Source of the DNA: Gammaproteobacteria bacterium
GTDB taxonomy: Bacteria > Pseudomonadota > Gammaproteobacteria > Eutrophobiales > Eutrophobiaceae
Length of the DNA: 64,000 bases
Assembly (NCBI GenBank): GCA_004297165.1
Contig: SCUJ01000006.1
Location: 124,001-188,000, forward strand
Direction: 5' to 3'
Shown here one piece after another: positions 17,767 to 64,000 of the stretch; within the stretch, counting starts at the first letter, position 1; every line of letters begins with the position of its first letter. Under the pieces are notes generated by a model. It saw only the letters and a list, made by a program, of their open reading frames with translations. It was not told where the DNA came from and did no database searches. The position numbers and the translations under genes were made by a program.

Positions 17767-17769
17767 CCC

Positions 17770-18720
17770 GTGACCACCACCGAGACCGTCACCCGTTTCA
17801 AGAAACTGCCCAAGGTAACGCAGTACTACAAAAACGAGGATCAATTCACCCCCGGCGTCGCCTTCTGCTCGGGCTGCACCCTGGAGCACAACGTGCGTTT
17901 CGTCTCCCGGGTCCTGGGCAAGGACGCCATCTTCGTCGGCACGCCATCCTGTTCGGCGCCGGTATTGAATGGCGCCAATGACGGTGCCTGGCACCGGCAT
18001 GCCCATTACGCCTGCACCATGACCGGGGTGGCCTCGAGCGCCACGGGCCTGCGCCGCGCGTTTCTCAAGGCGGGCAAGGACGCCACAATCGTCTGCTTCA
18101 CCGGGGATGGCTGCGCCATGGACGTGGGATTCCAACCCTTGAGCGGGGCCGCCGAGCGCAACGAGAAGATCATCTACATCTGTTACGACAACGAAGGCTA
18201 CATGAACACCGGGATCCAGCGCAGCAGCGGCACGCCGCTCGGCGCCAGCACCAGCACGACCCAGGTGGGCAGCACTGGGCAGGGGAAAAGCACCGGCTCG
18301 AAAAACATGCCGATGGTGATGGCCATGCACGACATACCCTTTGTCGCCACCGCCACCTTGAGCCACTTGGACGACTACGCGAAGAAACTCGACAAGGCGC
18401 GGGAGTTTTGCAAGGAGGGGTTCGTATATCTGCATGTCTTCACGCCCTGCAACGTTGGGTGGAAGACCCCGACCGACGCCTCCATCGAAGTCTGCCGGGC
18501 CGCGGTCAAGACCAATTACTTCCCGTTATGGGAGGCCGACCACGGCCGCTTCCGCATGACTTACAAGACCAAGAAGCCGCATCCTGTCGAGGACCTTACC
18601 AGCCTGCTCGGGAAATTCAAGCATCTGGACGGCGCGCAACTAGCCGCCTTGCAGGCCCAGGTCGACAAGCGCTTTCACGTTTTACAGTCCCTCTGCGCGG
18701 GTTTTACGGAAGGCGAATAA
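17770..18720 (+). CDS. porB: 2-oxoacid:ferredoxin oxidoreductase beta subunit
   Basis: 316 residues. Start is GTG at 17770 with GGAG 8 nt upstream. TPP pyrophosphate motif GDGCAMDVG with downstream YDNEGYMNTGIQRS is complete. Cysteines for the proximal [4Fe-4S] cluster appear as FCSGCTLEHN and, further on, TPCNVGW. This completes the four-subunit enzyme. Together with porGDA it gives ferredoxin-linked pyruvate metabolism, unexpected beside an aerobic cytochrome oxidase, and fits anaerobic expression through the upstream FNR-type box. Confidence 0.93.
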   Translation: MTTTETVTRFKKLPKVTQYYKNEDQFTPGVAFCSGCTLEHNVRFVSRVLGKDAIFVGTPSCSAPVLNGANDGAWHRHAHYACTMTGVASSATGLRRAFLKAGKDATIVCFTGDGCAMDVGFQPLSGAAERNEKIIYICYDNEGYMNTGIQRSSGTPLGASTSTTQVGSTGQGKSTGSKNMPMVMAMHDIPFVATATLSHLDDYAKKLDKAREFCKEGFVYLHVFTPCNVGWKTPTDASIEVCRAAVKTNYFPLWEADHGRFRMTYKTKKPHPVEDLTSLLGKFKHLDGAQLAALQAQVDKRFHVLQSLCAGFTEGE

Positions 18721-29225: not shown

Positions 29226-30518
29226 ATGAATACTACCAGGCATCCAGCGCAGATTTTTGTTAAAGACCTGCAGGAATCGGACACTCGGACACTCCAGGGC
29301 ACCCGCGCCACTTTGCTGGATCGTCTGGCGCTCAATTTTTTATACGATGCAATCGGCCGGCCGCCGGTCGATTTCAAGTTATGGGACGGGACCCATGCCG
29401 CCAACAGCCCTGGCGGCAGTCGGTTACGGATTATTTTTCGCACCCGCAAGGCCCTGTGGCGGACCTGCCTGCGCCCGGACCCCGGTTTCGGCGACGCCTA
29501 CACAGTAGGCGAGGCGGATATCGAGGGCGATTTGATCGAAACCCTGATCGAAACCTATCGCACGATGGAACAGAGCCCCTGGCAGAATTTCCGGCGGCGC
29601 GTTCCCGGTTGGGTGGCGCTACCCTACGGCAATTCCCTGACCGAATCCAAACGTAATATCGCCGCTCATTATGACCTGGGCAACGATTTCTACCGCCTCT
29701 GGCTGGATCCCGATATGGTGTATACCTGCGCTTATTATCGCGGCGCGGATCTGGATCTCGCCGCGGCACAACAGGCGAAGCTCGAGCATGTCTGCCGCAA
29801 GGTCGGCCTGACCCCGGGGATGCGCGTCGTAGAGGCGGGTTGCGGTTGGGGTTCTCTCGCCCTGTACATGGCGCGCCACTATGGCGTCAAGGTGCGGGCC
29901 TTCAATATTTCCCGTGAGCAGATTACTCATGCGCAGCAGCGGGCCAGGGAAGAGGGGCTCGATCACGCCGTCGAGTTTATTGAGGACGATTACCGTAATA
30001 TCCGGGGCGAATACGACGCCTTCGTTTCCGTCGGTATGCTCGAACATGTGGGGCCGGACCATTACCGGGAACTTGGCGAGCTGATCAAGCGTTGCCTCGC
30101 GCCCGCCGGACGCGGTCTGATCCACAGCGTCGGGCGGAACCGCACAACCCCGATGAACGGCTGGATCCATCAACGCATCTTTCCCGGCAGTTATACGCCG
30201 AGCCTGAAGGAGATGATGGACATTTTCGAAGCCACCTCTTTTTCCATCCTCGATGTGGAAAACCTCCGCCTGCACTATGCGCGAACCCTCACGGACTGGC
30301 TGCGGAATTTTGATGACCGGCTGCCCGTGATCCGGGACAAATATAACGAGGCATTTATTCGCGCGTGGCGATTATATCTGGGTGGTTGCGTCGCCGCCTT
30401 TACGGCCGGGACGCTGCAATTATTCCAGGTAGTATTTACCCATTCTGGAAATAATCGCCTGCCCCGTTCGCGGGATCATCTCTACGCCGGGACCGAACCT
30501 GAGTTCTGGTCGAACTGA
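29226..30518 (+). CDS. cfa: Cyclopropane-fatty-acyl-phospholipid synthase family protein
   Basis: 430 residues. It has the N-terminal lipid-binding region, then NIAAHYDLGNDFYRLWLD, the SAM motif VVEAGCGWGSL, FNISREQITHAQQRA, YDAFVSVGMLEHVG and a C-terminal block RLYLGGCVAAFTAGTLQLFQ. The enzyme transfers a methylene group from SAM to unsaturated acyl chains in membrane lipids. ATG with AGGAG upstream. A flavoprotein of the geranylgeranyl reductase family follows after 6 nt, so a second modification step of the acyl chain is possible. Other SAM-dependent lipid methylation (methyl-branched chains) cannot be excluded. Confidence 0.92.
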   Translation: MNTTRHPAQIFVKDLQESDTRTLQGTRATLLDRLALNFLYDAIGRPPVDFKLWDGTHAANSPGGSRLRIIFRTRKALWRTCLRPDPGFGDAYTVGEADIEGDLIETLIETYRTMEQSPWQNFRRRVPGWVALPYGNSLTESKRNIAAHYDLGNDFYRLWLDPDMVYTCAYYRGADLDLAAAQQAKLEHVCRKVGLTPGMRVVEAGCGWGSLALYMARHYGVKVRAFNISREQITHAQQRAREEGLDHAVEFIEDDYRNIRGEYDAFVSVGMLEHVGPDHYRELGELIKRCLAPAGRGLIHSVGRNRTTPMNGWIHQRIFPGSYTPSLKEMMDIFEATSFSILDVENLRLHYARTLTDWLRNFDDRLPVIRDKYNEAFIRAWRLYLGGCVAAFTAGTLQLFQVVFTHSGNNRLPRSRDHLYAGTEPEFWSN

Positions 30519-30524
30519 GCGACG

Positions 30525-31547
30525 ATGGACAATTTCGATGTCATCGTCGTCGGGGGCGGACCGGCAGGGTCCGCCAGCGCGGGGGCCCTGGTCCGCGCCG
30601 GCCGGCGCGTCGTGGTGCTGGATCGCGAGGAATTCCCGCGGTTGAAACTCTGCGCCGGCTGGGTGACGCCCGGTGTTTTCAAGGCGCTCGGGATCGAGCC
30701 CGAGGAGTATCCGCGCGGGCTGCATGCCTTTGACCATCTGGTTGTTCATGTGGGTGGATTGACGTTCCGTCTTCCCACGCGACAGTACTCCGTGCGCCGC
30801 CTGGAGTTCGACGACTTTCTCCTCCAGCGTAGCCAGGCCGCAATTATCCGGCACGAGGTGCGCGAGATCGTCCAGCGTGACGAGACATATATCATCGACG
30901 ACGCATACAGCGCGCGTTACCTGGTCGGGGCCGGCGGGACGCGCTGCCCGGTCTACCGGACCCTGTTCCGGCACAACCTCCAACGCGACAGCCGGACGCA
31001 AATCGCGGCCCTGGAGCTGGAGTTTCCCTGCTTGTGGCGGGATCCCCGGTGTCACTTGTGGTTCTTCGAGCGGTGCCTCCCAGGGTATTCCTGGTATGTG
31101 CCGAAGTCGAACGGCATGCTCAACATCGGCATCGGTGCGATGGCGGAGCACCTCAAACAGAAGGGGCAACACCTGCATGCACACTGGGAACAGCTCATCG
31201 CCCGCCTCTGCCGGGAAGGGTTGCTCGATAGCGAACCGGGGCCGCCGTCCGGCTACTCCTATTATTTACGGGCGAGCGGCAATTCGGCGCGTCTGGGCAA
31301 TGCCCTACTGGTCGGCGATGCGGTGGGCGTCGCGAGCCGCGATCTTGGCGAGGGCATCGGTCCCGCCATCCGCAGCGGATTGAGCGCGGCCGAAAGTATT
31401 CTTACGGCCAGCCCTTATCGACCTCACCAGGGGAGCGGTCTGTCGTTCGATGAAATCCTGCACAATCGCCTCCTGCGTCTGCTCGGACGTGCGGCCTTCC
31501 GGATGCTCGGCATTACCGGCAGGGAGATCTCGCTGGAGGGTCGATAA
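30525..31547 (+). CDS. FAD-dependent oxidoreductase, geranylgeranyl reductase family
   Basis: 340 residues. Rossmann start DVIVVGGGPAGSASAGALV with the E/D at the end of the second strand (VVLDREEF), then LCAGWVTPGVF as in geranylgeranyl reductases, a middle strand motif YLVGAGGTRCPV and the second FAD motif ALLVGDAVGVASRDLGEGI. Members reduce isoprenoid or other lipid double bonds, or act as hydroxylases. The tight link to cfa (6 nt) suggests a lipid substrate. Polyprenyl quinone tail or chlorophyll-type reduction is not implied by the neighbours. Confidence 0.85.
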   Translation: MDNFDVIVVGGGPAGSASAGALVRAGRRVVVLDREEFPRLKLCAGWVTPGVFKALGIEPEEYPRGLHAFDHLVVHVGGLTFRLPTRQYSVRRLEFDDFLLQRSQAAIIRHEVREIVQRDETYIIDDAYSARYLVGAGGTRCPVYRTLFRHNLQRDSRTQIAALELEFPCLWRDPRCHLWFFERCLPGYSWYVPKSNGMLNIGIGAMAEHLKQKGQHLHAHWEQLIARLCREGLLDSEPGPPSGYSYYLRASGNSARLGNALLVGDAVGVASRDLGEGIGPAIRSGLSAAESILTASPYRPHQGSGLSFDEILHNRLLRLLGRAAFRMLGITGREISLEGR

Positions 31548-31553
31548 GCGGGG

Positions 31554-33038
31554 CTATCCGGACTTCCAGAGTTTGTCCCAGATCGCATCGATGCGATCGA
31601 CCACCGCCTGATCCATGCGGATCGGGCGCCCCCATTCCCGGTTCGTTTCGCCGGGCCATTTGTTGGTGGCGTCGATGCCGACCTTGGCGCCGAGCCCGGC
31701 GACCGGGCTTGCGAAATCGAGCGCATCGATCGGCGTATTTTCCACGATGGTGAGATCGCGTCCTGGATCGGCGCGCGTGGATACGGCCCAGATCACATCG
31801 CTCCAGTTGCGCACGTCGATATCCTCGTCGGTGACGATCACGAATTTCGTATAGGTGAATTGCCGCAGGAAGGACCAGATCCCGAACATGATGCGTTTTG
31901 CGTGTCCGGCGTACTCTTTGCGGATGCTGACTGTGGCGATGCGGTAGGAACAGGCCTCGGGCGGGAGATAGAAGTCGACGATCTCCGGAAATTGTTTTTG
32001 CAGGATCGGCACGAACACCTCGTTCAGCGCCAACGCCAGCATGGAAGGTTCGTCGTCCGGAGAGCGGCCGTTGTAGGTGGTGTGGTAGATCGGCGCGTTG
32101 CGACGGGTGATGCACTCGATCGTGAAGACCGGAAAACGCTCTGCCGTGTCGTAATAGCCCGTGTGATCCCCGAAGGGGCCTTCGAGCGCATCCTCGCCCG
32201 GCTCGATATGGCCTTCCAGGACGATCTCCGCCGTCGCCGGGGCCTGCAAGGGGATGGTCCGGCAGTTGCAGATCTCGCTGCGCGCCCCCCGGAGCAGTCC
32301 GGCGAACTGATACTCGGAGAGGGCATCCGGGATCGGCGTTACCGCCGCGAGGATCGTCGCCGGATCGGCGCCGAGCGCCACGGCGACAGGAAATTTACCC
32401 CCAGGGTTCGCGTTCAGCCAGTCCCGGTAATCCTGCGCCCCGCCGCGATGCGGCAGCCAGCGCATGATCAGTTTGTTGCGGGCGATGACTTGTTGCCGGT
32501 ACACGCCGATATTCAGACGTTCCTGCCGCGGCCCTTTGGTGATGGTCAGACCCCAGGTAAGCATCGGTCCTGCATCCCCCGGCCAGCCGGTCTGTATGGG
32601 GAATTGGTAAAGATCCACCTCCGGTCCCATGCAAATGGTCTCCTGACAGGGCGGCGTTCCGCGCACGAGACGCGGGTGAAAATGCAGCAGCTTCCTGAAG
32701 GTCGGAAACTTGTCGAGCGCATCGCCGAGGCCGGTGGGCCAGGCCGGGTCCTTGAGACTCGCGAGCAACGTTCCCAGTTCGCGCAGGTCGGCGACGGATT
32801 CCCGCCCGATCCCCATGGCGATGCGTTGAGTACTGCCGAAGAGATTGCAGAGCGCCGGGATGTTCGAGCCTTTTGGATTCTCGAAAAGCAGGGCGGGACC
32901 ATTCTCGCGCAGGCTGCGCCGTGAGACCTCGGTCATTTCGAGACAGGGATCGATGGGATGACCGATGCGTTGCAGCAGTTTGCGGCGTTCCAAATCCCGG
33001 AGAAATTCGCGCAGGTCGAGGTAAGCGGCGGTGCTCAT
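31554..33038 (-). CDS. ubiD: 4-hydroxy-3-polyprenylbenzoate decarboxylase (UbiD)
   Basis: 494 residues, normal UbiD length. Visible blocks: [57 protein letters not shown] with the catalytic Glu and [13 protein letters not shown]. It uses prenylated FMN (made by UbiX, not in view) to decarboxylate the quinone ring precursor; this step needs no oxygen. It is convergent with the lipid genes (6 nt gap to the flavoprotein stop) and divergent from ubiT, 53 nt apart. Confidence 0.95.
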
Positions 33039-33091: not shown

Positions 33092-33640
33092 GTGACCGCA
33101 AAAGCCCAAGCCCAAGCCACAAATCAGCAGCGTCAGCAGACCTTGCGCCTGTTCCTGCAGCAGGTTCCGGACCGGGTCAAGACCAAGCTGTTCGTGCGGA
33201 TCTTCAACCATCTGGCGCGAGGCCAGACCCTGGTGGAGCGGCTGCGCGAATTGGATAACCGCATCATCGGCCTGCGCATCACCGATATCCCGTGCCTGTT
33301 CCAGTTGCATGTTCTGAACGGACGGCTGCGGGCCGCGGATCAGGACTGTTGCGATGTTACCATAAGCGGCGAATTGCAGGGATTCCTGCAACTCGCCGCG
33401 CTTAACGAGGATCCCGATACGCTCTTCTTTCAGCGGGTGCTGCGGATCGATGGCGAGACCGATACAGGCGTGCATATCAAGAATATCCTGGATGCCATGG
33501 ACTACGATTGGGATGCCCATATCGATGCCGTCCTGGCCGCGACGCCCTGGCTCGCGAAGGGTGCGAAGCGTTGCCTGCATGCGTCGCGCCGCTTAATCCC
33601 GCGTGAAATCCGGCAGGGAATGGCGATCCTTAACCTGTAG
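33092..33640 (+). CDS. ubiT: UbiT, SCP2-domain protein of O2-independent ubiquinone synthesis
   Basis: 182 residues, GTG start at 33092. It carries an SCP2 sterol/lipid carrier domain (about 40-135, LRITDIPCLFQLHVLNGRL, DVTISGELQGFLQL, LFFQRVLRIDGETDTG), the UbiT hallmark. UbiT binds quinone precursors and works with UbiU/UbiV in the anaerobic pathway. Its 3' end overlaps the end of ubiV by 11 nt in convergent orientation; this antisense arrangement is unusual. No clear ribosome site is seen before the GTG. Confidence 0.9.
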   Translation: MTAKAQAQATNQQRQQTLRLFLQQVPDRVKTKLFVRIFNHLARGQTLVERLRELDNRIIGLRITDIPCLFQLHVLNGRLRAADQDCCDVTISGELQGFLQLAALNEDPDTLFFQRVLRIDGETDTGVHIKNILDAMDYDWDAHIDAVLAATPWLAKGAKRCLHASRRLIPREIRQGMAILNL

Positions 33641-34526
33641 TCTGATGAAGTCGCCGGATGCCGGCGTCCCCGTTCCAGTAGCCGTCACAACCGCCAAAAG
33701 TCTCGTACTGTCGCAGTTGCCGCACGGCATCTTGCGCTTCGATGCAGCCGTCGATCACGGCGCGGACCGTGGCGACAATTTCCGGCAGACCTTCGGCCTG
33801 CGGCGACAACCGCAGGACGTCGATGCCGCGGTCGCGCATCTCCGCATAATAGCCAATGAGATTACAGGTGGCTGCGGACTGGATCTGAATGCCATTAATC
33901 AAAAGGAAGGGTCGATCCTCCTGGGTGTCGAGCGGCATGCCATCCACGTAGTCGCCGCAGATGAAACCGCATTGATCCTTGCCGCGATTGTTGGCACGCG
34001 CGCTGAAACAACGCGCGGAAAACGCCAGCGGCAGGCGGCCGAAGGCGAGCGTCTCCACCTCGAGTCCGGCCGGACGTGCCCGCAGGATCTCGCTCAGGGT
34101 CTCCTTGCCGAGCTCCACGGGCGCGATCCAGCGGGTCGCGCCAGCCCCGGCGAGCAGGCGCAAGGTCTGCGGATTGTAAACATTGATATGCGGCCCTATT
34201 ACGAACGGGCGGCCGGTTCGCGACTGGACCGCCGCCATGTCATTTGCCTCCACCGCAAATTCGTCGTTGGCGGCGATGCGTTGCAGGATGGCCAATTCCC
34301 CCTCCGCTTCGATGAGGCTCAGGGTCGCGAGGATGACCTCCTTGCCGGCCGTGCGCAGGTCATGGGCGATTCGCAGCCAGTCGTCGAGATCCAGGGCCCG
34401 GCGCTTGGAGCAGACCGTCTCGCCCAGGTACACGATATCGATGGGCGCAGCCCGCAGGGATTCATAGAAGGCGAACACCCGCTCGCGGTTCCAGAAATAC
34501 TGGAGTGGGCCGAGGCTCAGTTTCAT
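33630..34526 (-). CDS. ubiV: UbiV, O2-independent ubiquinone hydroxylation protein
   Basis: 298 residues of the peptidase-U32-like family. [4Fe-4S] ligands fit UbiV: Cys39, and Cys173, Cys186, Cys190 in FSARCFSA and DQCGFICGDY. Cys39 matches the known E. coli position exactly; the third spacing is slightly shorter. UbiU and UbiV form a heterodimer that hydroxylates the quinone ring with prephenate rather than O2. ATG at 34526 overlaps the ubiU stop as ATGA, so the upstream ATG at 34562 inside ubiU is rejected. Family start MKLSLGPLQYFW supports this. Confidence 0.95.
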   Translation of the reverse strand: MKLSLGPLQYFWNRERVFAFYESLRAAPIDIVYLGETVCSKRRALDLDDWLRIAHDLRTAGKEVILATLSLIEAEGELAILQRIAANDEFAVEANDMAAVQSRTGRPFVIGPHINVYNPQTLRLLAGAGATRWIAPVELGKETLSEILRARPAGLEVETLAFGRLPLAFSARCFSARANNRGKDQCGFICGDYVDGMPLDTQEDRPFLLINGIQIQSAATCNLIGYYAEMRDRGIDVLRLSPQAEGLPEIVATVRAVIDGCIEAQDAVRQLRQYETFGGCDGYWNGDAGIRRLHQTTG

Positions 34527-35554
34527 TGCCAGGGTCGGTGATAGGCGCCGAGGGTGTGGCAACTGCCCTCAGCGAGAAGATTTAATTGTTCGATCCAGTC
34601 GGGCCTCGCCCGGAAGGTTTCAGGGTCGCGGTTGCAGGCGTCCAGCGCGTCGCGCAGGATCCGGGTTACGGTGGCCACATAGGCGCGACTGCGTTGCCGT
34701 CCCTCCACCTTGATGGCGCTAATGCCGGCGCGTTGGATATCGGGCAGGATCTCGATCAGGTTCAGACAAGTCGGCTCCTCGATGGCGTGATAGATATGGT
34801 CGTTCACCTTGAACCGGCCCTTGCAGATGGTGGGGTAACTGGCGGCCTCGTCATCCTTGAAGGTGTTGATGAGGATGTCGTTGAGATAGGAATCAGTGCC
34901 GGCCGCGGTCTCATGCCAGCGCACGGCATGCGCGGGGGAACAGACGCCGGCGCTGTTGGGCGATTCTGCCGTTACAAATGAAGAAAGGGCGCAACGGCCT
35001 TCAGCCATGACACATAGGCCGCCATAACCGAAGACCTCGATCTCCACGCCGGATTTCTCCACGAGCCGGCGCACCTGCTCGAGCGACAATACCCTGGGCA
35101 AAACCACCCGCTGGATACCGAAGCGCTCCCGATAGAAGGCGATCGCCTGGCGGTTGGTGGCCGAGCCCTGCACGGAAAGATGCAGGCGCAGCCCAGGGTG
35201 CGTAGCTTTGGCGTATTCGAGCAGACCAGGGTCGGCCAGGATCAATGCATCGACGCCGATGGCGGCGGCCATGTCCACCGAAGCGGCGGCCTCATCCCAG
35301 AGACGCGGCACTGGGTAGGTATTCAAGGCGAGGAAGACCCGTTTGCCGGCATTACGGGCATAATCTATGCCTTTGGCGGCCTCGTCTCGACTGAAGTTAA
35401 GGCCGGGAAAGTTTCTCGCGTTGGTATTATTGCGAAATCCGATATAAACCGCGTCCGCGCCGTTGTCGACGGCGGTCTTCAAGGCGGGGAGATTGCCGGC
35501 GGGACAGACCAGTTCAACTCGCTTTCTGTTTATGGAGGCTTGGCCTTCCTGCAT
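34523..35554 (-). CDS. ubiU: UbiU, O2-independent ubiquinone hydroxylation protein
   Basis: 343 residues, U32 family: VELVCPAGNLPALKTAVDNG at the start and a 4Fe-4S site at Cys181, Cys188, Cys205 and Cys244 (GGLCVMAEGRC, NSAGVCSP, YPTICKG). These four cysteines are in the same spacing as in E. coli UbiU (offset +12). Partner of UbiV, overlapping it by 4 nt. A small membrane protein gene lies 7 nt upstream in the same direction, then hemN, suggesting one FNR-driven transcript. Confidence 0.95.
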   Translation of the reverse strand: MQEGQASINRKRVELVCPAGNLPALKTAVDNGADAVYIGFRNNTNARNFPGLNFSRDEAAKGIDYARNAGKRVFLALNTYPVPRLWDEAAASVDMAAAIGVDALILADPGLLEYAKATHPGLRLHLSVQGSATNRQAIAFYRERFGIQRVVLPRVLSLEQVRRLVEKSGVEIEVFGYGGLCVMAEGRCALSSFVTAESPNSAGVCSPAHAVRWHETAAGTDSYLNDILINTFKDDEAASYPTICKGRFKVNDHIYHAIEEPTCLNLIEILPDIQRAGISAIKVEGRQRSRAYVATVTRILRDALDACNRDPETFRARPDWIEQLNLLAEGSCHTLGAYHRPWQ

Positions 35555-35561
35555 CGCTACC

Positions 35562-35996
35562 TCATCCGCCTCGCCGATCCGGTTGAAACCGGCCGCTGAA
35601 GAAGAGCATCCGGTGGCGTATGAACTTCGGCATGTGACTGGCGTAGACGCCGATGATGACGATCAGGCAAAGCAACGGAATCGCCGCCTCGAACCAGAAG
35701 CCGATACACACCATCAGCAGCAGCTTGACTAGAATAGCTATGCCCCTCACTTCCAGCAATACTGAAGCGGAGGCGTGCAGGTCCATCCCCAGCAGGGCGA
35801 CGCCCGAGGCGATGGTGGCGTACAACCAGGGTATGAGTTCGGTCTCCGGCAACCCAAAAATGTGACCGCCGAGAAGCGTGCCGCTGGTCAATATGTGGAT
35901 GGCGCGCGTGAGGGTCTTCAGGTTGCGGCGCAGGGGAAAATCGCGAGGCACAGCCGGGAAGAGAATATCGATCAGTTTGTCTGCGCGTCGGCCCAT
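35562..35996 (-). CDS. Conserved four-segment membrane protein between hemN and ubiU
   Basis: 144 residues. About four membrane segments (ILTSGTLLGGHIFGLP, LIPWLYATIASGVALLGMDL, GIAILVKLLLMVCIGFW, LLCLIVIIGVYASHMP) and a basic C-terminus (KFIRHRMLFFSGRF). I do not recognise a named family. The gap to ubiU is 7 nt and to hemN 46 nt, so it should be expressed with the anaerobic heme/quinone genes. A role in membrane access of quinone precursors or in electron supply is conceivable but not shown by the sequence. Confidence 0.75.
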   Translation of the reverse strand: MGRRADKLIDILFPAVPRDFPLRRNLKTLTRAIHILTSGTLLGGHIFGLPETELIPWLYATIASGVALLGMDLHASASVLLEVRGIAILVKLLLMVCIGFWFEAAIPLLCLIVIIGVYASHMPKFIRHRMLFFSGRFQPDRRGG

Positions 35997-36042: not shown

Positions 36043-37434
36043 TCAGATCGTCCGGGAGAAGGTTTGCTCGGCCTGTGTCTGCCGGAGGTATTTGTCGAAG
36101 ACAGCGCAGATGTTGCGCACCAGCAGGCAGCCGGCGGGTGAAACCCGGATGCGTTCCGCGTCGATGCTTAACAACCCGTCGCGCTCCATGCCTTTCAGGA
36201 TGCTGATCTCGTTATAGAAGTAATCGTTGAAATTGATTCGGTGCCGGGTTTCGATCTGCTCGAATTCAAGATTGAAATGGCAGATGAGCTGGGTGATGAC
36301 ATCCCGGCGCAGCAGATCGTCGCCGTCGAGTTTCAAACCCCGGAAAACCGGGATGCGTCCGGCCGTGACGAGTTTTTCATACTCGCCGATCTCGTACACG
36401 TTCTGCGAGTAACAGTCGCCCACCTTGCTGATGGCGGAGATCCCCATGCCGATGATGTCGCAGTTGGCATGGGTCGAATAACCCTGGAAATTGCGGGTCA
36501 GGGTGCCCTGTTTCTGCGCCAGGGCCAGTTCGTCGTCAGGTCTGGCGAAATGATCCATGCCGATGTAGGTATAACCTTCCTGCGTCAGATAATTGATGAC
36601 GTGTTGCAGGATGTTGAGTTTTTCCGTGGGCGCCGGCAGATCGGCCTTGTTGATCTGCTTTTGCGTCTTGAAGCGCCGTGGCATGTGGGCGTAGTTGAAA
36701 ACAGAAATTCTATCCGGGCCCAACTCGATCACTTTTTGCAGGGTGCGGGCGAAGCTTTCCACGGTTTGTTTCGGCAGGCCGTAGATTAGATCGATATGCA
36801 CGGACTTGAAGGCGTGTTTCCGGGCGGCCTCAATGACAGCGCGGGTCTCCGCAATGCTCTGGATCCGGTTGACGGCCTTCTGCACCTCGGGATCGAAATC
36901 CTGCACCCCAAGGCTGACCCGGTTGAAACCCAGGGAACGGAGCAAGGCGATGGTGTCTGCGTCCGCCTCGCGCGGATCGAGCTCGATGGAGTATTCGCCT
37001 CTGTCGTCATTGCGCAGTGAAAAGGCATCCCGCGTGTGCCTCATCAGATCGCTCATCTGGGCGTGGCTGATGAAAGTGGGAGTGCCGCCGCCCCAGTGCA
37101 ACTGCTCGACTATGCGGTCGCGGTCATAAAGGCTGCTTTGCAGCTTGATCTCCTCATACAGAAGTTGCAGGTAGGGAGCGGCATGGGCGCGGTTCTTGGT
37201 GATGATCTTGTTGCAGGCGCAGTAATAGCAAACGGTATCGCAGAAGGGGAGATGAAAATAAAGCGATAATTGTTTCGGTACCGGTTCCTCGTTGGTGGAT
37301 CGCGCTATTTCGACGTAATTGTCATGACAGAAACTCTCGTCGAACTGCACCGCCGTGGGATATGAGGTGTAGCGCGGCCCGAGGGTGTCATAGCGGGTGA
37401 TCAGATCCTTGTTGAAAATCAGGCTGTTAATCAT
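36043..37434 (-). CDS. hemN: O2-independent coproporphyrinogen III oxidase
   Basis: 463 residues, full-length radical SAM enzyme. Radical SAM cluster motif CDTVCYYCAC (C-x3-C-x2-C), HWGGGTPTF, and SVQDFDPEVQKAVNRIQ (LGVQDFDP in this protein), GLPKQTVESF. HemN oxidatively decarboxylates coproporphyrinogen III without O2. The N-terminal IPxxYPTAVQF region (GPRYTSYPTAVQF) is typical of true HemN. Preceded by an FNR box 70 bp upstream of the ATG, and followed by the membrane protein, ubiU and ubiV. Confidence 0.96.
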   Translation of the reverse strand: MINSLIFNKDLITRYDTLGPRYTSYPTAVQFDESFCHDNYVEIARSTNEEPVPKQLSLYFHLPFCDTVCYYCACNKIITKNRAHAAPYLQLLYEEIKLQSSLYDRDRIVEQLHWGGGTPTFISHAQMSDLMRHTRDAFSLRNDDRGEYSIELDPREADADTIALLRSLGFNRVSLGVQDFDPEVQKAVNRIQSIAETRAVIEAARKHAFKSVHIDLIYGLPKQTVESFARTLQKVIELGPDRISVFNYAHMPRRFKTQKQINKADLPAPTEKLNILQHVINYLTQEGYTYIGMDHFARPDDELALAQKQGTLTRNFQGYSTHANCDIIGMGISAISKVGDCYSQNVYEIGEYEKLVTAGRIPVFRGLKLDGDDLLRRDVITQLICHFNLEFEQIETRHRINFNDYFYNEISILKGMERDGLLSIDAERIRVSPAGCLLVRNICAVFDKYLRQTQAEQTFSRTI

Positions 37435-37620: not shown

Positions 37621-38391
37621 TCAGTGACCCGTTGCGCTGCGGCTCTTGCTGGAGGATTCCTTGTTGCCCGTGCACATGCAACGTATCCCGTGCTCATTCA
37701 CGATCTTGATGAGTTTTCTGTCGATGACGATGAGCTTGTCCTTCTGCAGGCGGCTGAAGATTCGGCTAACCGTTTCAACCGTGAGTCCGAGGTAATTGCC
37801 GATCTCCTGTCTGGACATGGGCAATCTGAATTCGGTGGAGGAATAACCCAGCACATGCAGGCGCGAGGAGAGATTGACCAGGAAGGTCGCGATCTTTTCC
37901 TCGGCGCTCTTCTTGCCAAGTAGTAACAACGATTGGTTCTCGCTGGAAAGCTCACGGCTCATCAGACGATAGATCTGGTGCTGGAGCCCGGGTATCTGTT
38001 GGCAGAGTTCTTCCAGTCGGGTGAAAGGGACGGCGCAGAAGCTGCTGGTTTCAAGCGCTACCGTTGTGCAAACGTGTTTCTCAGTATCTATCGCATCCAG
38101 GCCGAGCAGTTCACCTGGGAGGTAGAAGCCGAGGATTTGTTCATTGCCTTCCTCGGTGGTCCGATAGGCCTTGATGGCGCCCGAGCGCACGGCATAAAGT
38201 TGCTGGAATTTATCGCCGGTGTGGAAGAGGTAATCGCCGCGTTGCAGGGGGCGCACTCGCTTGATGATCTTTTCGAGTTCATTCAAATCGTCAACCTTGA
38301 GGCCCCACGGCAGACATAATTCAACCAGGCTGCAGTTGCCGCAGGATACCTTGAATTTTGAGATATCAAAGATCTGGTGTGTAGAACTCAC
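37621..38391 (-). CDS. fnr: FNR/ANR-type oxygen-sensing transcription regulator
   Basis: 256 residues. Fe-S ligands Cys17, Cys20, Cys26 (C-x2-C-x5-C) and Cys108 match FNR. Then a CRP-like nucleotide fold (about 45-145), dimerisation helix and an HTH domain with recognition helix LTVETVSRIFSRLQ; the E-x-x-S-R of this helix is the FNR type that reads TTGAT. As an O2 sensor it loses the [4Fe-4S] cluster in air. Three FNR-type boxes occur in this window, so it is the natural regulator of the surrounding genes. No clear own box upstream. Confidence 0.94.
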   Translation of the reverse strand: MSSTHQIFDISKFKVSCGNCSLVELCLPWGLKVDDLNELEKIIKRVRPLQRGDYLFHTGDKFQQLYAVRSGAIKAYRTTEEGNEQILGFYLPGELLGLDAIDTEKHVCTTVALETSSFCAVPFTRLEELCQQIPGLQHQIYRLMSRELSSENQSLLLLGKKSAEEKIATFLVNLSSRLHVLGYSSTEFRLPMSRQEIGNYLGLTVETVSRIFSRLQKDKLIVIDRKLIKIVNEHGIRCMCTGNKESSSKSRSATGH

Positions 38392-38579: not shown

Positions 38580-39218
38580 TCAAAAACTCATGCCGAACAT
38601 AATGACGGCGCATTCATCCGCCACCTTTGCCGCCGCGCCCAGCATGGCCTTGGTCACCGCACTCAATGCCGTATCACGCGCTCGCCGCATGGTGAGAGGT
38701 AATTTTAAGGAGTTGCTGAGAAGTCTGGTTTCGTCGATATATAAATTCAGGATTTTGAGAATGAATTCGTGAAACTGACCCCTATCAAGAACTGCCTGGA
38801 TTGCCTTGCGCAACCTGGGCTGTTTTTCCATTTGTTGGAGGATTCGATACACGCCATCCAACAAGAGTCGCATTCTCTCGGCGCGGATAGCCTCGATATC
38901 TTCATGTCGAATCTGGATGCCTATGTTAGGCATGTGAGACTTGCGGACAAATTGGCGATCGATCTCACGAGCCTTTTGCAGCAGAATGCGAATTTCCCGG
39001 TCGCCGGGGGGCGATTGCTGACGGGAGGACTGAAATGCCACCTCAATCACCGCATGATCCTTCTCTATCTCTTTCCGTACATTGTCGAGGAGAAAGCCGC
39101 TGAACGGCGGCAAGAGCAGTTTGAAAAACGGATTGTGTTTCAACGTGGCGAGGGTCTGGCCGTTGAATTCATGCATCATCCAGGCGCTCGCAGCGCAGAG
39201 GAGGCGATACTTGTTCAC
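38580..39218 (-). CDS. Unknown soluble protein after the UbiE-like methyltransferase
   Basis: 212 residues, GTG start at 39218 (ATG alternatives at residues 14-15). No signal peptide or long membrane segment; mostly helical with many charged residues (EIEKDHAVIEVAFQSSR, REIRILLQKAREIDRQFVRK, RAERMRLLLDGVYRILQQMEK). I recognise no domain. It begins 16 nt after the methyltransferase stop on the same strand, so the two likely share a transcript that starts at the FNR box region divergent from frd. A link to anaerobic quinone metabolism is inferred from context only. Confidence 0.65.
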   Translation of the reverse strand: MNKYRLLCAASAWMMHEFNGQTLATLKHNPFFKLLLPPFSGFLLDNVRKEIEKDHAVIEVAFQSSRQQSPPGDREIRILLQKAREIDRQFVRKSHMPNIGIQIRHEDIEAIRAERMRLLLDGVYRILQQMEKQPRLRKAIQAVLDRGQFHEFILKILNLYIDETRLLSNSLKLPLTMRRARDTALSAVTKAMLGAAAKVADECAVIMFGMSF

Positions 39219-39234
39219 TTACTGCCTGAACGAG

Positions 39235-40011
39235 TCAACTGACAGGCGAGACTTTTTGGGCCTTGTGAAATCCGAGGAGTCCCCCGAGGAGAGTCTTGTG
39301 CGTGACGTTGGCAAAACCCAGGTGGCGCAGCAGTTCGGACAGTTCCTCCGCGGAATAGAAATTACTGAGCACCTCCAGAAAGTAATCCCGACAATCCAAT
39401 GCCTTTCTGCCGCTGCCAAAGATCTTTGCGGTGAGAGTCAGGCACGCCCCGAGATAGGTATAGTGCAGTTTCCCAACCAGGCGGTTCCTCGGGCGCAACA
39501 TATCGGCGTGATAAAAGAAGCCGCCGGGTTTTAAAACCCTGAGGATTTCACTGAATACATCGAACAGCCGCAGGTGCCTGGAGGCGTATTGAATAGTTAC
39601 CAGATCGAAGTGATTGTCGGGAAAAGGTAGCTTGTGGACATCGTCGATGACGCTTTCGATATGAAAACCTTTGCGCTCAGCCCGCTCCCTACCCACCTTC
39701 TGCATCTCCTGATTGCGATCGATGGCGATTATCTGGAGATCAGGTTGCCGCTCCAGCAGGGCGATGCCCGTAGCATTGGTGCCCGCGCAGACATCGAGCG
39801 CCTTGTAACCAGGACGCAGGTCGATGGTGGAGAGGAAAGTATCCCGAAACCACCCGAAAAGCCCGAGGCTCGCGACATAATTGGCGCTGTCGTAATACGA
39901 GGCGATATCGGCGAAGACACTGTCCAGGTCATCGCGCCAGACCTGCTTGAAGGCGCTTTCCCGGTAATGTTCGTGTGCGGAGAATTGAGTTGCCTGTTTC
40001 CCGTTCGCCAT
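39235..40011 (-). CDS. UbiE/MenG-like SAM-dependent methyltransferase
   Basis: 258 residues with the UbiE layout: SYYDSANYVASLGLFGWFRDT, a SAM motif reading LDVCAGTNATGIALL (UbiE has D-L-A-G-G-T-G), motif II IIAIDRNQEMQKVGRER, LPFPDNHFDLVTIQYASRHL, RVLKPGGFFYHADML and a C-terminal GGLLGFHKAQ like UbiE TAGVVALHRG. So it is a divergent relative of the ubiquinone/menaquinone C-methyltransferase, not UbiE itself. Its gene is divergent from frdA across a perfect FNR box; a role in making or modifying a quinone for fumarate reduction is possible. It is not RquA-like. Confidence 0.8.
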   Translation of the reverse strand: MANGKQATQFSAHEHYRESAFKQVWRDDLDSVFADIASYYDSANYVASLGLFGWFRDTFLSTIDLRPGYKALDVCAGTNATGIALLERQPDLQIIAIDRNQEMQKVGRERAERKGFHIESVIDDVHKLPFPDNHFDLVTIQYASRHLRLFDVFSEILRVLKPGGFFYHADMLRPRNRLVGKLHYTYLGACLTLTAKIFGSGRKALDCRDYFLEVLSNFYSAEELSELLRHLGFANVTHKTLLGGLLGFHKAQKVSPVS

Positions 40012-40171
40012 TAGTTCGTTGCACCTCGGTTATGCGGTAAGTTTTTTGGCTGGATTGCGCCGTTCAATGCGGCAGGCCAAGAGGTATAATACAGTGATAT
40101 CATAATTGCAGAATGTCGATTTGGAAAGCTGGCGCGTTGGCGGGAAATTTGGGTTTGACTCTGGTTATGAA

Positions 40172-40185
40172 TTGATCTGCATCAA
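40172..40185 (+). promoter_or_regulatory. Perfect FNR box of the frd operon
   Basis: TTGATCTGCATCAA, exact match to TTGAT-N4-ATCAA. TATCAT at 40208-40213 forms a -10 whose start near 40220 is 41.5 bp from the box centre, the class II FNR distance. The box is 160 bp from the divergent methyltransferase start and may influence that gene as well. Confidence 0.8.
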
Positions 40186-40288
40186 GATGCGGGGCCAGTA
40201 CCGTGATTATCATGAACATTGGTCTTCAACCAATAAAAATTAAATACAGGCCGATGATCCGTTCGGCAGGTCGGGAGTAATACTGAGC

Positions 40289-42091
40289 GTGGACACTATC
40301 AAGACCGATATCGTTATTGTTGGCGGCGGGGGGGCTGGGCTACGCGCCGCCATAGCCGCAGCGGAAAAAGATCCCGGACAGTGCATCGCCCTGGTCTCCA
40401 AGGTTTATCCCATGCGCAGCCATACGGTTGCCGCTGAAGGCGGCGCCGCCGCAGTGACCCAGCCGCATGATAATCTCGAATATCACTTCAACGATACGGT
40501 CGCCGGCGGCGATTGGTTATGCGAACAGGACGTGGTCGAATATTTCGTGGCCCATGCCCACGAAGAACTGGTCCAGATGGAGCACTGGGGCTGTCCGTGG
40601 AACCGCAAGGAGGACGGACACATCAACGTGCGCGCCTTCGGCGGTATGAAGATCGAGCGTACCTGGTTCGCGGCGGACAAGACTGGGTTTCACATGTTGC
40701 ATACCCTCTTTCAGACCTCCATCAAATATCCATCGATCAAACGCTTCGATGAATATTTCTGCGCCGATATCGTGGTTGACGAGGGGCGCGCCCAGGGCGT
40801 GGTGGTAATCGAGATCGCGACAGGACGGATCTGTTTCATCCAAGCCAAGGCGATCGTCCTCGCAACCGGAGGCGCCGGCCGGGTTTTCCGCGAAAATACC
40901 AACGGCGGCATCGTTACTGGCGATGGAATGGCGCTGGCTTATCGTCGAGGAGTGGCATTGCGCGACATGGAATTCATGCAATATCACCCAACCTGCATGC
41001 CAGGAACCGGTCTTCTCTTTACCGAGGCCTGCCGTGGCGAGGGTGGTTACCTGTTGAACAAGGATGGGTATCGATTTCTTGAGGATTATGGATTGGGCCC
41101 CCCCAGTCCCGAACCGCGCAACAAATTCATGGAATTAGGACCGCGCGATCGGGTAAGCCAGGCGATATGGCATGAAAAGCAGAAAGGGCGGACCATTGAC
41201 AATCCCCACGGCCAGGTAGTGCATCTGGACATGCGACATCTGGGCGAAAAGAAGCTGCGCGAACGACTCCCGCAGATCTATGAACTGGCCGAGGAATACA
41301 TGGGGATTGACCCGGCGCATGAACCCATTCCTGTCCTGCCGGGCGTCCATTACACCATGGGCGGCATCGAAACAGACGGCCGCACCGCGACGAATCTTCC
41401 GGGACTCTATGCCGTGGGCGAGTGCGCGAGCGTAGGCATCCATGGGGCGAACCGACTCGGCTCCAACTCCTTAGTCGAGCTCTGCGTGTTCGGCAAGGTA
41501 GCGGGTGAGGAAGCCACCCAATTTGTCAAAACCACGAGCAATTCCCCCACGGGTACGCTGGAGCGGCAGGCCAGTGAAATCGGCAACCGTTTGCGCGGAT
41601 TGGTGGACAACCCCTCCGGCAAGGAGCGCATCGCGGTCATCCGCAGCGAGATGGCAAAAAGCATGGAGGACGGTTGCGGTATCTACCGGACCGAAGCCGG
41701 CATGCGCGCCACCTGCGACAAACTGGCGGAACTGAAACAGCGTTATCGATCCATAAATATCGAGGACAAATCCAGCGCCTGGAACACCGAATGGCTGCTG
41801 GCGATAGAGTTGGGTTATCTACTGGAGGTGGCGGAAACCATCGCTAGTTCGGCCTTGAACCGCAAGGAATCGCGCGGCTCGCATCAACGCCTGGAAGGCT
41901 TGGAACAGCGCGACGATCAAAATTACCTCAAACACACGCTGGCCCGTTACGCTGGCGAGGGTCCGCCGAAGATTGAATATTCCCCGGTGAAAATCACCAA
42001 GCTGGAGCCTGGCATTCGCGCTTATGGCGAGGCCGGTGAAAAGGCCGAGGCGGAACGAAAAAAGAAGAAGGAAGCGGCGCATGGCAAATAA
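40289..42091 (+). CDS. frdA: Fumarate reductase flavoprotein subunit
   Basis: 600 residues. FAD-binding IVIVGGGGAGLRAAIAAAE, covalent FAD histidine His45 in SHTVAAEGG, substrate motifs HTLFQTSIKYP, MEFMQYHPT, TEACRGEGGYLLN, ERLPQIYELAEEY and HGANRLGSNSLVE are intact. The genes that follow are two small membrane anchors, frdC and frdD, as in E. coli, so the enzyme most likely works as a quinol:fumarate reductase. GTG start with GGGAG 11 nt upstream. A Lys/Glu-rich C-terminal tail is present. Under the FNR box at 40172. Confidence 0.95.
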   Translation: MDTIKTDIVIVGGGGAGLRAAIAAAEKDPGQCIALVSKVYPMRSHTVAAEGGAAAVTQPHDNLEYHFNDTVAGGDWLCEQDVVEYFVAHAHEELVQMEHWGCPWNRKEDGHINVRAFGGMKIERTWFAADKTGFHMLHTLFQTSIKYPSIKRFDEYFCADIVVDEGRAQGVVVIEIATGRICFIQAKAIVLATGGAGRVFRENTNGGIVTGDGMALAYRRGVALRDMEFMQYHPTCMPGTGLLFTEACRGEGGYLLNKDGYRFLEDYGLGPPSPEPRNKFMELGPRDRVSQAIWHEKQKGRTIDNPHGQVVHLDMRHLGEKKLRERLPQIYELAEEYMGIDPAHEPIPVLPGVHYTMGGIETDGRTATNLPGLYAVGECASVGIHGANRLGSNSLVELCVFGKVAGEEATQFVKTTSNSPTGTLERQASEIGNRLRGLVDNPSGKERIAVIRSEMAKSMEDGCGIYRTEAGMRATCDKLAELKQRYRSINIEDKSSAWNTEWLLAIELGYLLEVAETIASSALNRKESRGSHQRLEGLEQRDDQNYLKHTLARYAGEGPPKIEYSPVKITKLEPGIRAYGEAGEKAEAERKKKKEAAHGK

Positions 42092-42833
42092 CGAAAAAAC
42101 TATCGAGATTGAGGTGTTGCGCTATCGTCCTGAAGAGGACGACAAGCCATTCCTGCAAAGTTTCAAGGTCCCGTTCACCGATGATATGTCCGTGTTGCAG
42201 GGCGTACAGTACATCAAGGATTACCTGGATGGATCGGTGAGTTTCCGCTGGTCGTGCCGCATGGCGATCTGCGGCAGTTGCGGGATGATGATAAACGGCG
42301 TGCCCAAACTCTCGTGCAAGACCTTTCTGCGGGAATATTACCCAGGGAAGATCACGCTGGAGGCATTGAAGCATTTCCCGATAGAAAAGGATTTGGTGAT
42401 CGATCTCTCTGACTTCATCGGCAAACTCGAGAGCATCAAGCCATACATCGTACCGGATGCCCCCCGCGCGCTGGAGGAAGGAGAGTATCTGCAAACTCCG
42501 CGGCAACTCGATCGCATCGCCCAGTTCAGTTCCTGCATCAATTGTATGCTGTGTTATGCGGCGTGCCCTCAGTATGGACTGAAACCGGAGTATCTCGGTC
42601 CGGCAGCGATCGCACTGCTGCACCGATACAACGAAGATAATCGGGATTCGGCCAAAGCGGAGCGCATGCAGCTTCTCAATGCCCATGAAGGAGTCTGGGG
42701 TTGTACCTTGGTCGGCTACTGTTCTGAGGTATGTCCCAAGGATGTCGATCCTGCCGCCGCCATCAACCGCAACAAAGTGAACAGCACTATTGATTATCTC
42801 CTGCGCTTCGTTGCGCCACGGGGAGGGAACTGA
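42081..42833 (+). CDS. frdB: Fumarate reductase iron-sulfur subunit
   Basis: 250 residues. [2Fe-2S] motif SCRMAICGSCGMM with a later Cys (KLSCKTF), then a ferredoxin-type domain with FSSCINCMLCYAACP and WGCTLVGYCSEVCPKD carrying the [4Fe-4S] and [3Fe-4S] cysteines. ATG at 42081 lies within the end of frdA (11 nt overlap) and matches the family start, so the earlier ATG at 42024 is rejected. Connects the FAD site with the membrane anchor. Stop overlaps the frdC ATG by 1 nt. Confidence 0.95.
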   Translation: MANNEKTIEIEVLRYRPEEDDKPFLQSFKVPFTDDMSVLQGVQYIKDYLDGSVSFRWSCRMAICGSCGMMINGVPKLSCKTFLREYYPGKITLEALKHFPIEKDLVIDLSDFIGKLESIKPYIVPDAPRALEEGEYLQTPRQLDRIAQFSSCINCMLCYAACPQYGLKPEYLGPAAIALLHRYNEDNRDSAKAERMQLLNAHEGVWGCTLVGYCSEVCPKDVDPAAAINRNKVNSTIDYLLRFVAPRGGN

Positions 42834-43225
42834 TGAGCACGCGCAAGCCCTACGTCAGACCCATGACGGGATGGTGGTTGAAAAACCCCGTTTATATCCG
42901 TTATATCCTGCGCGAGTCCACTGCGGTGTTCGTCGGAATCTATGCAGTCATTCTGTTAATTGGTCTCATACGTCTCAGTTCCGGCGAGGCGGCCTGGAAC
43001 GGTTGGATCGATGCAATGCGCAGTCCCGGGGCAATTCTGTTCCATTGCGTGGCGCTCGGCGCGGCTGTCTATCATGCAATTACCTGGTTTGCGGTAGCGC
43101 CGAAGGTGATGCCGCCGCTGTATTTCAAGGGCGAAAAGGTGCCGGTCGAAAAACTTGTGACGGCTCAGTATATTCTTGCCGGCGTCATCTACCTGGTCCT
43201 GCTGGGCCTGATCCTCTGGAGTTAA
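42833..43225 (+). CDS. frdC: Fumarate reductase membrane anchor FrdC
   Basis: 130 residues, three membrane segments (TAVFVGIYAVILLIGLIRL, PGAILFHCVALGAAVYHAITWF, LVTAQYILAGVIYLVLLGLIL). The opening RKPYVRPMTGWWLKNPVYIRYILRE is split here as KPYVRPMTGWWLKN and YIRYILRES, which match the known FrdC N-terminus. Contains the quinone site side with Glu in ILRES. Overlaps frdB by 1 nt and is followed by frdD after 1 nt. Confidence 0.94.
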   Translation: MSTRKPYVRPMTGWWLKNPVYIRYILRESTAVFVGIYAVILLIGLIRLSSGEAAWNGWIDAMRSPGAILFHCVALGAAVYHAITWFAVAPKVMPPLYFKGEKVPVEKLVTAQYILAGVIYLVLLGLILWS

Positions 43226-43226
43226 T

Positions 43227-43580
43227 ATGCACAAACGATCCAATGAACCTATAGTATGGAGCCTGTTCGGTGCCGGTGGCGTAGTGGTTGCCTATAGCAT
43301 GCCGGTTTTCATACTTATTACGGGAATTGCGGTGCCGATGGGAATAGTCTCAGCCGATGTGCTCGCCTACGACCGTCTAGCTGGTTTTGCCGCAGGCTGG
43401 TTCGGAAAACTGTTTCTGCTGGTAATTATCAGCCTGCCGTTGTGGCAGTCCGTCCACAGGATATTCCTCAGTCTGCATGATTTTGGCATCACTGGCGGTG
43501 AAGTCTTCTTTCGGGTCGTATTGTATGGCGCTGCGCTCTGGGGCACTCTGCTCCCGCTTTATCTGCTGATCGGAATGTGA
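43227..43580 (+). CDS. frdD: Fumarate reductase membrane anchor FrdD
   Basis: 117 residues, three membrane segments with SNEPIVWSLFGAGGVVVAYS near the start and RIFLSLHDFGITGG in the loop after the second segment (FrdD-type H-D motif), ending with FLPLYLLIGM-like LLPLYLLIGM. Completes the membrane dimer that binds menaquinol or another low-potential quinol. Such an anchor would favour menaquinone or rhodoquinone rather than ubiquinone. No menaquinone genes are seen in the window. Confidence 0.93.
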   Translation: MHKRSNEPIVWSLFGAGGVVVAYSMPVFILITGIAVPMGIVSADVLAYDRLAGFAAGWFGKLFLLVIISLPLWQSVHRIFLSLHDFGITGGEVFFRVVLYGAALWGTLLPLYLLIGM

Positions 43581-51890: not shown

Positions 51891-52697
51891 ATGAGCGAGA
51901 GTGAAGGTTTGAAACGGTTGGTCAGGGATAAATACGGGGCGCTGGCCGCGCGAGATAACGAGAAAGATCAGGGCGACTGTTGCTGCGCCGATGCGGGTTG
52001 CGGGACGGATATGGCCCCGCTGGTCAGCGGATATGAGGAACAACAAGGTTATAACCCGGATGCCGACCTCGGGCTCGGCTGCGGCCTGCCGGTGGATCTC
52101 GCGGGTTTGCATCCCGGCGATACCTTGATCGATCTCGGCGCCGGGGCCGGTAACGATTGCTTCATCGCCCGCGCCGCAGTCGGCGAAAGTGGTCGTGTGA
52201 TTGGCATCGACATGACGCCCGAGATGATCGCCAAGGCCAGGCGCAACGCGGAAAAATCCGGTTTCGACAATGTCGAATTCCGGTTGGGCGAACTCGAAAA
52301 TCTGCCGGTGGAAGATAATCTTGCCGACGTCGTGGTGAGTAACTGCGTCTTTAACCTGGTCCCCGACAAGGCCAGGGCATTCAGGGAAACCTGGCGGGTC
52401 TTGAAACCGGGCGGTCATTTCAGCATCGCGGACATCGTGACCCTGGGAGAGTTACCCCACGAGTTGCAACGCGTGGCGGAGTTGTATACCGGCTGTATCG
52501 CCGGGGCCATGGATCGGGATGCCTATTTGCAGTTGATCCGCGCCGCGGGTTTCAAAGCGGTCCGGGTGCAAAGAGAGTCGCGGATCGCCATACCGCGGGA
52601 GTTGCTCATGCGGCATGGCATCCCAGCCGAAATCGCCGGGAAGCTCGCAGATCAGACCACGGTCATGAGCATCACCGTGACGGGTGAGAAGCGCTGA
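51891..52697 (+). CDS. arsM: Arsenite SAM methyltransferase
   Basis: 268 residues. ArsM methylates arsenite via SAM to mono-, di- and trimethyl forms. SAM fold DTLIDLGAGAGNDC, GIDMTPEMIAKAR, ADVVVSNCVFNLVPDK, RVLKPGGHFSIADI. The three As(III)-binding cysteines fit Cys64 (LGLGCGLP), Cys152 (SNCVFN) and Cys202 (YTGCIAGA); a Cys-rich N-terminal segment DCCCADAGC adds more. RBS AGAGG before the ATG. Preceded by a broken arsR and an intact palindrome. No arsenic transporter gene in view. Confidence 0.95.
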   Translation: MSESEGLKRLVRDKYGALAARDNEKDQGDCCCADAGCGTDMAPLVSGYEEQQGYNPDADLGLGCGLPVDLAGLHPGDTLIDLGAGAGNDCFIARAAVGESGRVIGIDMTPEMIAKARRNAEKSGFDNVEFRLGELENLPVEDNLADVVVSNCVFNLVPDKARAFRETWRVLKPGGHFSIADIVTLGELPHELQRVAELYTGCIAGAMDRDAYLQLIRAAGFKAVRVQRESRIAIPRELLMRHGIPAEIAGKLADQTTVMSITVTGEKR

Positions 52698-63147: not shown

Positions 63148-64000
63148 TTAACAGAGGGATTGTCGCAGCCGGTTTGCCAGCCACCCGAACCCGACTCTCT
63201 CTTGCTCGAGCCGGAGACCTTCGCGGATTCGGTTGTCGCGCAAGTCGGTGTAAAGGGCCTGCTCATCAGGTGTCAGTCTGTTTAGTGCGGTTCGCAACGG
63301 AGTGTCTTCGAACCCCCAGAAAGCACGATGGGCTTCCAGCGTCGCGCGGTCCATGAGAAACGAAGCGACATGACTGAAATGCGCCCTCAACTGGTCCAGG
63401 ATGCCGAAGCCATGAGTATCGATATCGCCCCAGTAATGGATCGCGCAACTTGCGAGCCATTGGGCTTGCGCCAGAGCCTCCCAGCCATAACCTGCGCCGA
63501 AGATGACGATGGCGCCGGCCATCTCCGGAAAGGCCAGAAAGTTGGTTTCGTTCTCGGTGATGAACACCCGCTGCACGAGTAGACACAGGGAGGCGAAGCT
63601 TTCGGCATCTAGCGTAATGTCCGCGCAGCCAACGACGCCGGATAGCGACGGTAAAGAGGCGTCCAACAGGCGGAAGCGGATGCGCGCCGGTTTGTCCCGG
63701 AAGCCGTAGCGGCGGGCGAATTGGCCAACGCCACCGGCGGCGGCATCGATAGTGTCGACGGGCAGTGCCTGATCGAAGAGTTCGATCAGAATGCCCCGGT
63801 GGGTCTCGATGAATTTGCTGTCCACTCCCGGCACATCCACTTGTCGCAGATAGATGTCGGGGCGCGGATGCGCCGCCATCCACTGCACCACTGCCAGGAG
63901 GCGTTGCCAGCGATCGGCCAGTTCCAGCGCCTTCAGGGGGCGTCGAATGAGCCAGGGTGCAAGCTGTGGCAGCGCATCACCGGTTTGCGACCACAGTTCC
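63148..64000 (-). CDS. jetD: Wadjet anti-plasmid protein JetD (start beyond window)
   Basis: 284 codons present, open to the right edge, so the N-terminus is missing. The visible N-terminal part (LPQLAPWLIRRPLKALEL, RQVDVPGVDSKFIE) is the DUF3322 domain; the C-terminal part is DUF2220, a Toprim-like nuclease with YWGDIDTHGFGILDQLRAHF and ENETNFLAFP (F-ITENETN). In Wadjet, JetD is the endonuclease that cuts small circular DNA after the JetABC condensin-like complex loads. jetA, jetB and jetC would be expected just beyond 64000 on the same strand. Confidence 0.88.
   Translation of the reverse strand, partial: ELWSQTGDALPQLAPWLIRRPLKALELADRWQRLLAVVQWMAAHPRPDIYLRQVDVPGVDSKFIETHRGILIELFDQALPVDTIDAAAGGVGQFARRYGFRDKPARIRFRLLDASLPSLSGVVGCADITLDAESFASLCLLVQRVFITENETNFLAFPEMAGAIVIFGAGYGWEALAQAQWLASCAIHYWGDIDTHGFGILDQLRAHFSHVASFLMDRATLEAHRAFWGFEDTPLRTALNRLTPDEQALYTDLRDNRIREGLRLEQERVGFGWLANRLRQSLC

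Follow-up and report, generated by a model that had tools for sequence, protein, structure and literature searches.

A new subfamily of UbiE/Coq5-type methyltransferases, co-occurring with oxygen-independent ubiquinone synthesis in Gammaproteobacteria and sharing, in one family, a predicted FNR box with frdABCD

The known low-potential carriers of proteobacteria are menaquinone and rhodoquinone, and menaquinone genes are missing from many facultative anaerobes that have fumarate reductase or other enzymes working at low potential. The potentials of ubiquinone, rhodoquinone and menaquinone are +100 mV, -63 mV and -80 mV, respectively, and because of these values a host with ubiquinone only and FrdABCD would profit from another quinone (PMC6529003). 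RquA is a SAM-dependent rhodoquinone synthase whose reaction, with Mn2+, is the transfer of an amino group (PMC9814641); its signature consists of Gln and Val at positions 3 and 7 of motif I (PMC7813818). The oxygen-independent ubiquinone pathway was found also in 73 of 84 RquA genomes (PMC11707229), and rquA is present in a menaquinone-less gammaproteobacterial symbiont with frdABCD (PMC8269255). Other described relatives of the enzyme reported here are UbiE/MenG/Coq5 (PF01209, TIGR01934) and MpqE, the methyl-plastoquinone methyltransferase (NF052510), which is likewise a quinone methyltransferase of the UbiE family.

The host genome (3.5 Mb, 99% complete) had as its neighbour of the same genus in the set the MAG Gammaproteobacteria bacterium RIFCSPLOWO2_02_FULL_56_15. 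In the window, i.e., the whole stretch of 64,000 nucleotides that was analysed, the following features surround the methyltransferase, abbreviated MT below:

31554-33038, minus strand: ubiD-type decarboxylase (TIGR00148 495.6 bits, cut-off 244.9; NF008175 781 versus 788)
33092-33640, plus strand: ubiT, SCP2 domain (NF047962 110.6 bits, cut-off 46.9)
33630-34562, minus strand: ubiV (NF047965 378.8 bits, cut-off 275)
34523-35554, minus strand: ubiU (NF047963 525 bits, cut-off 440)
35562-35996, minus strand: ORF of 144 residues between hemN and ubiU, without family match, 74% conserved in the relative G001
36043-37434, minus strand: hemN, oxygen-independent coproporphyrinogen III oxidase (TIGR00538 620 bits)
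37621-38391, minus strand: fnr, oxygen-responsive regulator (NF008365 279.7 bits, cut-off 228)
38580-39218, minus strand: ORF of 212 residues, 16 bases downstream of MT
39235-40011, minus strand: MT, UbiE/Coq5-type methyltransferase of 258 amino acids (PF01209 111.2 bits)
40172-40185, no strand assigned: perfect predicted FNR box, TTGATCTGCATCAA, in the intergenic region common to MT and frdA
40289-42091, plus strand: frdA, flavoprotein of quinol:fumarate reductase (NF006686 1035 bits, cut-off 854)
42078-42833, plus strand: frdB, iron-sulfur subunit (NF009051 413 bits, cut-off 333)
42833-43225, plus strand: frdC, membrane anchor (NF003445 105.1 bits, under its cut-off of 143)
43227-43580, plus strand: frdD, membrane anchor (NF003977 119.6 bits, cut-off 60)

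The gap between the start of MT (40011, minus strand) and that of frdA (40289, plus strand) comprises 277 bases, and the perfect FNR site which the original prediction had placed there was confirmed. Rightward of it lies frdABCD (40289-43580, plus strand), an E. coli-type quinol:fumarate reductase with both membrane anchors, of which FrdC scored under its own cut-off. Leftward follow, all on the minus strand, MT, the ORF of 212 residues, fnr, hemN, a small membrane-like ORF, ubiU and ubiV, and beyond these ubiT (plus) and the ubiD-type gene (minus). The 212-residue gene, which had been foreseen behind MT, is thus located outside the range then considered. The location of the locus near ubiUVT, under predicted FNR-type control, is supported: ubiU, ubiV and ubiT pass their cut-offs, and both an FNR box and fnr are present. 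The gap matches the promoter-type pattern TTGAT-N4-ATCAA in a genome encoding FNR, and a perfect site appeared in just 19 of 20,000 dinucleotide shuffles of its 277 bases. Whole gene order is retained in G001, a relative with 83% identity, and G017 has kept frdAB, MT and the 212-residue ORF up to the end of the contig; the box at these frd loci agrees in 10 of 10 positions (host and G017) and in 9 of 10 (G001), and sites with 9 of 10 positions were found also at the MT loci L018, L048 and L050. Contig C141 of G017 (locus L078) runs from within ubiU to the tail of the 212-residue gene; a molybdopterin oxidoreductase is situated between these ends and, unlike in the host, no fnr or hemN.

MT passes the gathering score of Pfam PF01209 (20.1) and remains under every curated equivalog cut-off for UbiE/MenG (128.4 versus 216 at best; TIGR01934, 132.8 versus 158.35) as well as under that of MpqE (NF052510, 107.8 bits versus 335). 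Phylogenetic analysis placed 22 MT sequences in one clade (support 100/100) with a very long stem of 2.59 changes per column. Cut-offs and tree rule out an ordinary UbiE or MenG: MT represents, with full support, a new subfamily among the UbiE/Coq5 methyltransferases which is neither of the two, and a description of it under a UbiE-like name was not found in the open-access literature. The host possesses its own canonical UbiE (279.7 bits, with LDVAGGTGDM and FGLRN) elsewhere in the genome, where a UbiJ-like gene is its neighbour; MT is unlinked to ubiEJB. Two main types of MT can be distinguished, and the genomes G118 (L049/L050) and G161 (L045/L048) carry one copy of each.

An AlphaFold model of MT (pLDDT 88.5) had yeast Coq5 (4obw) as its closest solved fold (Z 25.6, rmsd 2.1 over 213 residues; next Z 22.5). 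In the alignment with UbiE/MenG the N-terminal pattern YD..N...S.G, the SAM-binding Asp residues and Arg145 are retained (Asp73, Asp98, Asp124); Arg145 aligns with the catalytic Arg of Coq5 in IRNFT. The differences are a motif I reading LDVCAGTNATG, with CAGTN for GGTGD, as had been noted for its core VCAGTNATG, a three-residue insertion close to the conserved Cys207/Tyr210, ahead of Tyr210, which the aligned UbiE/MenG lack, and His instead of Asn next to the catalytic Arg: Arg145-His146 is invariant in the 22 MT sequences, and all aligned UbiE/MenG have Arg-Asn (LRN). The ring C-methyltransferase CouO has His120 and Arg121 as its catalytic pair; the CouO base corresponds in position to Arg201 of Coq5, for which the role of base has been proposed (PMC5289526). 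In MT, Arg145-His146 would probably deprotonate a ring hydroxyl, whereupon SAM would be attacked by the ring or by one of its substituents.

RquA resembles MT in being derived from UbiE, in its altered motif I, its sparse distribution and its occurrence with oxygen-independent ubiquinone synthesis. The two differ at motif-I positions 3 and 7, where MT has Asp73 and Gly77 and the Gln and Val of RquA are absent; an identity with RquA, which the original prediction had also denied, is rejected as far as this published signature goes. A search of plasmids for RquA gave only UbiE/MenG and generic methyltransferases among the matches listed, and in G104 and G234 (both with frd and UbiU, without MenD) the search for RquA led to another UbiE-like paralog with the canonical Asp/Gly motif. 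This second family of UbiE-like proteins has the motif ALRHVAD together with a canonical motif I and comprises L085 (G234), L086 (G104) and L057, which is on a Roseomonas plasmid and adjoins a gene for a lysophospholipid acyltransferase; G234 and G104 have FrdD and UbiU, no MenD and no MT.

The 212-residue protein was present in 11 of 20 genomes with MT and in none of 50 others (P 8e-8), most of which contain UbiU; a divergent copy (28%) in G653 also adjoins MT. Wherever the full context could be seen its gene comes after that of MT, at a distance of -1 to 33 bases. The model is all-helical (pLDDT 90.2). No curated match was obtained in Pfam, NCBIfam, PHROGs or PADLOC, the match to PF17388 (E 0.0034) being under the gathering score; Foldseek yielded nothing significant (best E 0.29), and VIA-align rows reached Z 6.2, which is in the chance range for helical bundles. 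Matches to PDB profiles covered a 37-residue stretch of fimbrial constructs and were judged spurious. The protein accompanies only one type of MT, as is seen where G118 and G161 have both, and MT can therefore probably work without it.

Among 369 genomes of the class, some of them incomplete, MT was found in 15, belonging to 12 families; in the sample of 299 genomes of the phylum it occurred only in the host and one more genome, both of the same class. UbiU exceeded its cut-off in 92 of the 369, namely in 12 of 15 genomes with MT and in 80 of 354 others (P 7.4e-6, kinship being handled by a count of families only, where UbiU accompanies MT in 9 of 12). It was under the cut-off in the remaining three genomes with MT, one of which is just 72% complete. 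FrdD with a strong score was detected in nine of the 369 and, among the 15, in the host alone (P 0.31); a general tie of MT to FrdD is absent across the class sample. Since UbiU is enriched and FrdD stands at chance, MT tracks oxygen-independent ubiquinone synthesis and not FrdABCD, so that of the two co-occurrences which had been suggested as a check that with UbiU was obtained and that with fumarate reductase was not. The UbiTUV pathway shares with MT the locus in host and G001, the FNR box and the co-distribution; however, MT is not a known member of it, and most genomes with UbiU are without MT. MenD exceeded its cut-off in 22 of 369 genomes; all of these belong to the 354 without MT and none to the 15 that carry it, a difference which is not significant (P 0.39). 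RquA is seldom found with menaquinone. A comparison with menaquinone genes had been proposed; the host has no MenD above cut-off and no MqnA/D, the latter having been looked for in this genome only.

The reading preferred here, for which a probability of about 0.5 is estimated, is that under low oxygen the target of MT would be the ring of ubiquinone or of one of its precursors, and that the product of MT would join or tune the quinone pool of hosts which make ubiquinone without oxygen and which are, as far as tested, menaquinone-less. This product would be used by FrdABCD, by a DsrOP-type complex or by dehydrogenases of the NapC/cytochrome b type. The helical protein of 212 residues would serve as accessory factor in substrate presentation or complex assembly, and FNR would turn on MT, its partner and frdABCD together in the host. 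The ring of ubiquinone is fully substituted. C-methylation of the ring could not add to mature ubiquinone, and therefore the substrate should be a precursor, or the reaction a different one. MT could also catalyse an unusual reaction of SAM, as RquA does, yet its active site appears methyltransferase-like, which would set it apart from the amino-transferring RquA. Methylation of the quinone chain, as in the methylene-ubiquinone of methanotrophs, was considered for MT, and no evidence for it was found.

More tentatively, and with the odds rather against it, MT, alone or together with the helical protein, could make a hitherto unknown benzoquinone of low potential, or else form rhodoquinone along a path that is not related to RquA. 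In proteobacteria with ubiquinone only, this quinone would replace menaquinone in anaerobic respiration, be it of fumarate, of sulfur or of another kind. FrdABCD may also run toward succinate oxidation.

Alternatively, the UbiTUV pathway could have recruited MT as an isoenzyme of UbiE for low oxygen, with the same C-methylation step as its task. The UbiE fold and the catalytic Arg are retained, MT co-occurs with UbiU, and it lies in the neighbourhood of FNR and ubiUVT in host and G001. This nevertheless appears unlikely, as the canonical step needs no oxygen and the host has a canonical UbiE, the stem of the clade is as long as given above, the change of Asn to His and the altered motif I are unlike any aligned UbiE/MenG, and two MT types stand side by side in G118 and G161.

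The neighbourhoods of the 22 aligned MT loci, in which not every neighbour was annotated, bear on the nature of the substrate. Seven of them have respiratory neighbours with a link to quinones (frd, DsrOP-cytochrome, NapC/cytochrome b). The genomes G146, G325 and G383 come from different families, and their MT copies fall into two clades; in all three, MT stands directly behind genes for a DsrO-type iron-sulfur protein, a DsrP-type membrane protein (364.5 bits in G146, cut-off 350) and a multihaem cytochrome. In G393 the gene before MT encodes a protein with matches to NapC, cytochrome c7 and cytochrome b561, and in G030 a 2-oxoacid:ferredoxin oxidoreductase and an RnfB-like protein are encoded downstream of MT. 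The general link to quinones which had been proposed is strengthened by the DsrOP and NapC/cytochrome b neighbours, together with the UbiE/Coq5 fold and the co-occurrence with UbiU. About two thirds of the 22 loci show no recognised respiratory gene next door, as far as their partial annotation goes. UbiE-type folds methylate many substrates, including other aromatic molecules, and the substrate could thus be a non-quinone lipid or aromatic compound made at low oxygen (tetrapyrrole, carotenoid, isoprenoid chain), as the several loci without respiratory neighbours would allow; the retained quinone-site pattern, Coq5 as top fold, the recurring quinone-linked neighbours and the tie to UbiU likewise render this improbable.

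Three of the 22 loci are linked to frd (frdABCD in host and G001, frdAB at the contig end in G017), and these represent one event, confined to the family of the host. That the pair of MT and 212-residue protein is dedicated to fumarate reductase and makes the quinone of FrdABCD, as originally predicted, would agree with the divergent arrangement and common FNR box of these three loci, with the lack of MenD and MqnA/D in the host and with rquA in the menaquinone-less frdABCD symbiont (PMC8269255), but is very improbable in view of FrdD in only one of 15 genomes with MT and of the pair in several other families with no frd beside it. A wide occurrence of the pair without fumarate reductase, which had been named as speaking against the proposal, was accordingly seen in part, namely as many families without frd next to the pair.

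With a UbiE-type enzyme which tracks oxygen-independent ubiquinone synthesis, there is a single gene with which to probe how menaquinone-less cells manage. Should MT alter the quinone pool, genome-based predictions of quinones for Gammaproteobacteria would need a new entry; should it leave the pool alone, it would still be an enzyme family with a partner awaiting assignment.

Some further observations concern single loci and the remainder of the window. A stand-alone DsrO/DsrP-like pair with a multihaem cytochrome is located just upstream of MT in L051 (5175-8348), L052 (551-3763) and L053 (5168-8320). In the window, a flavoenzyme of the geranylgeranyl reductase family (30525-31547, plus strand) and a protein resembling cyclopropane-fatty-acid synthase (29226-30518, plus strand) adjoin ubiD/ubiT and might have isoprenoid chains or lipids as targets. 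An arsenite methyltransferase is encoded at 51891-52697 (plus strand; NF008823 324.7 bits, cut-off 263), and a 2-oxoacid:ferredoxin oxidoreductase of three genes, the alpha subunit of which is nearest to PorA/PadG, at 15721-18720 (plus strand). The C-terminal part of a JetD (Wadjet) protein, with 355 bits in PADLOC, lies at the edge of the window (63148-63891, minus strand).
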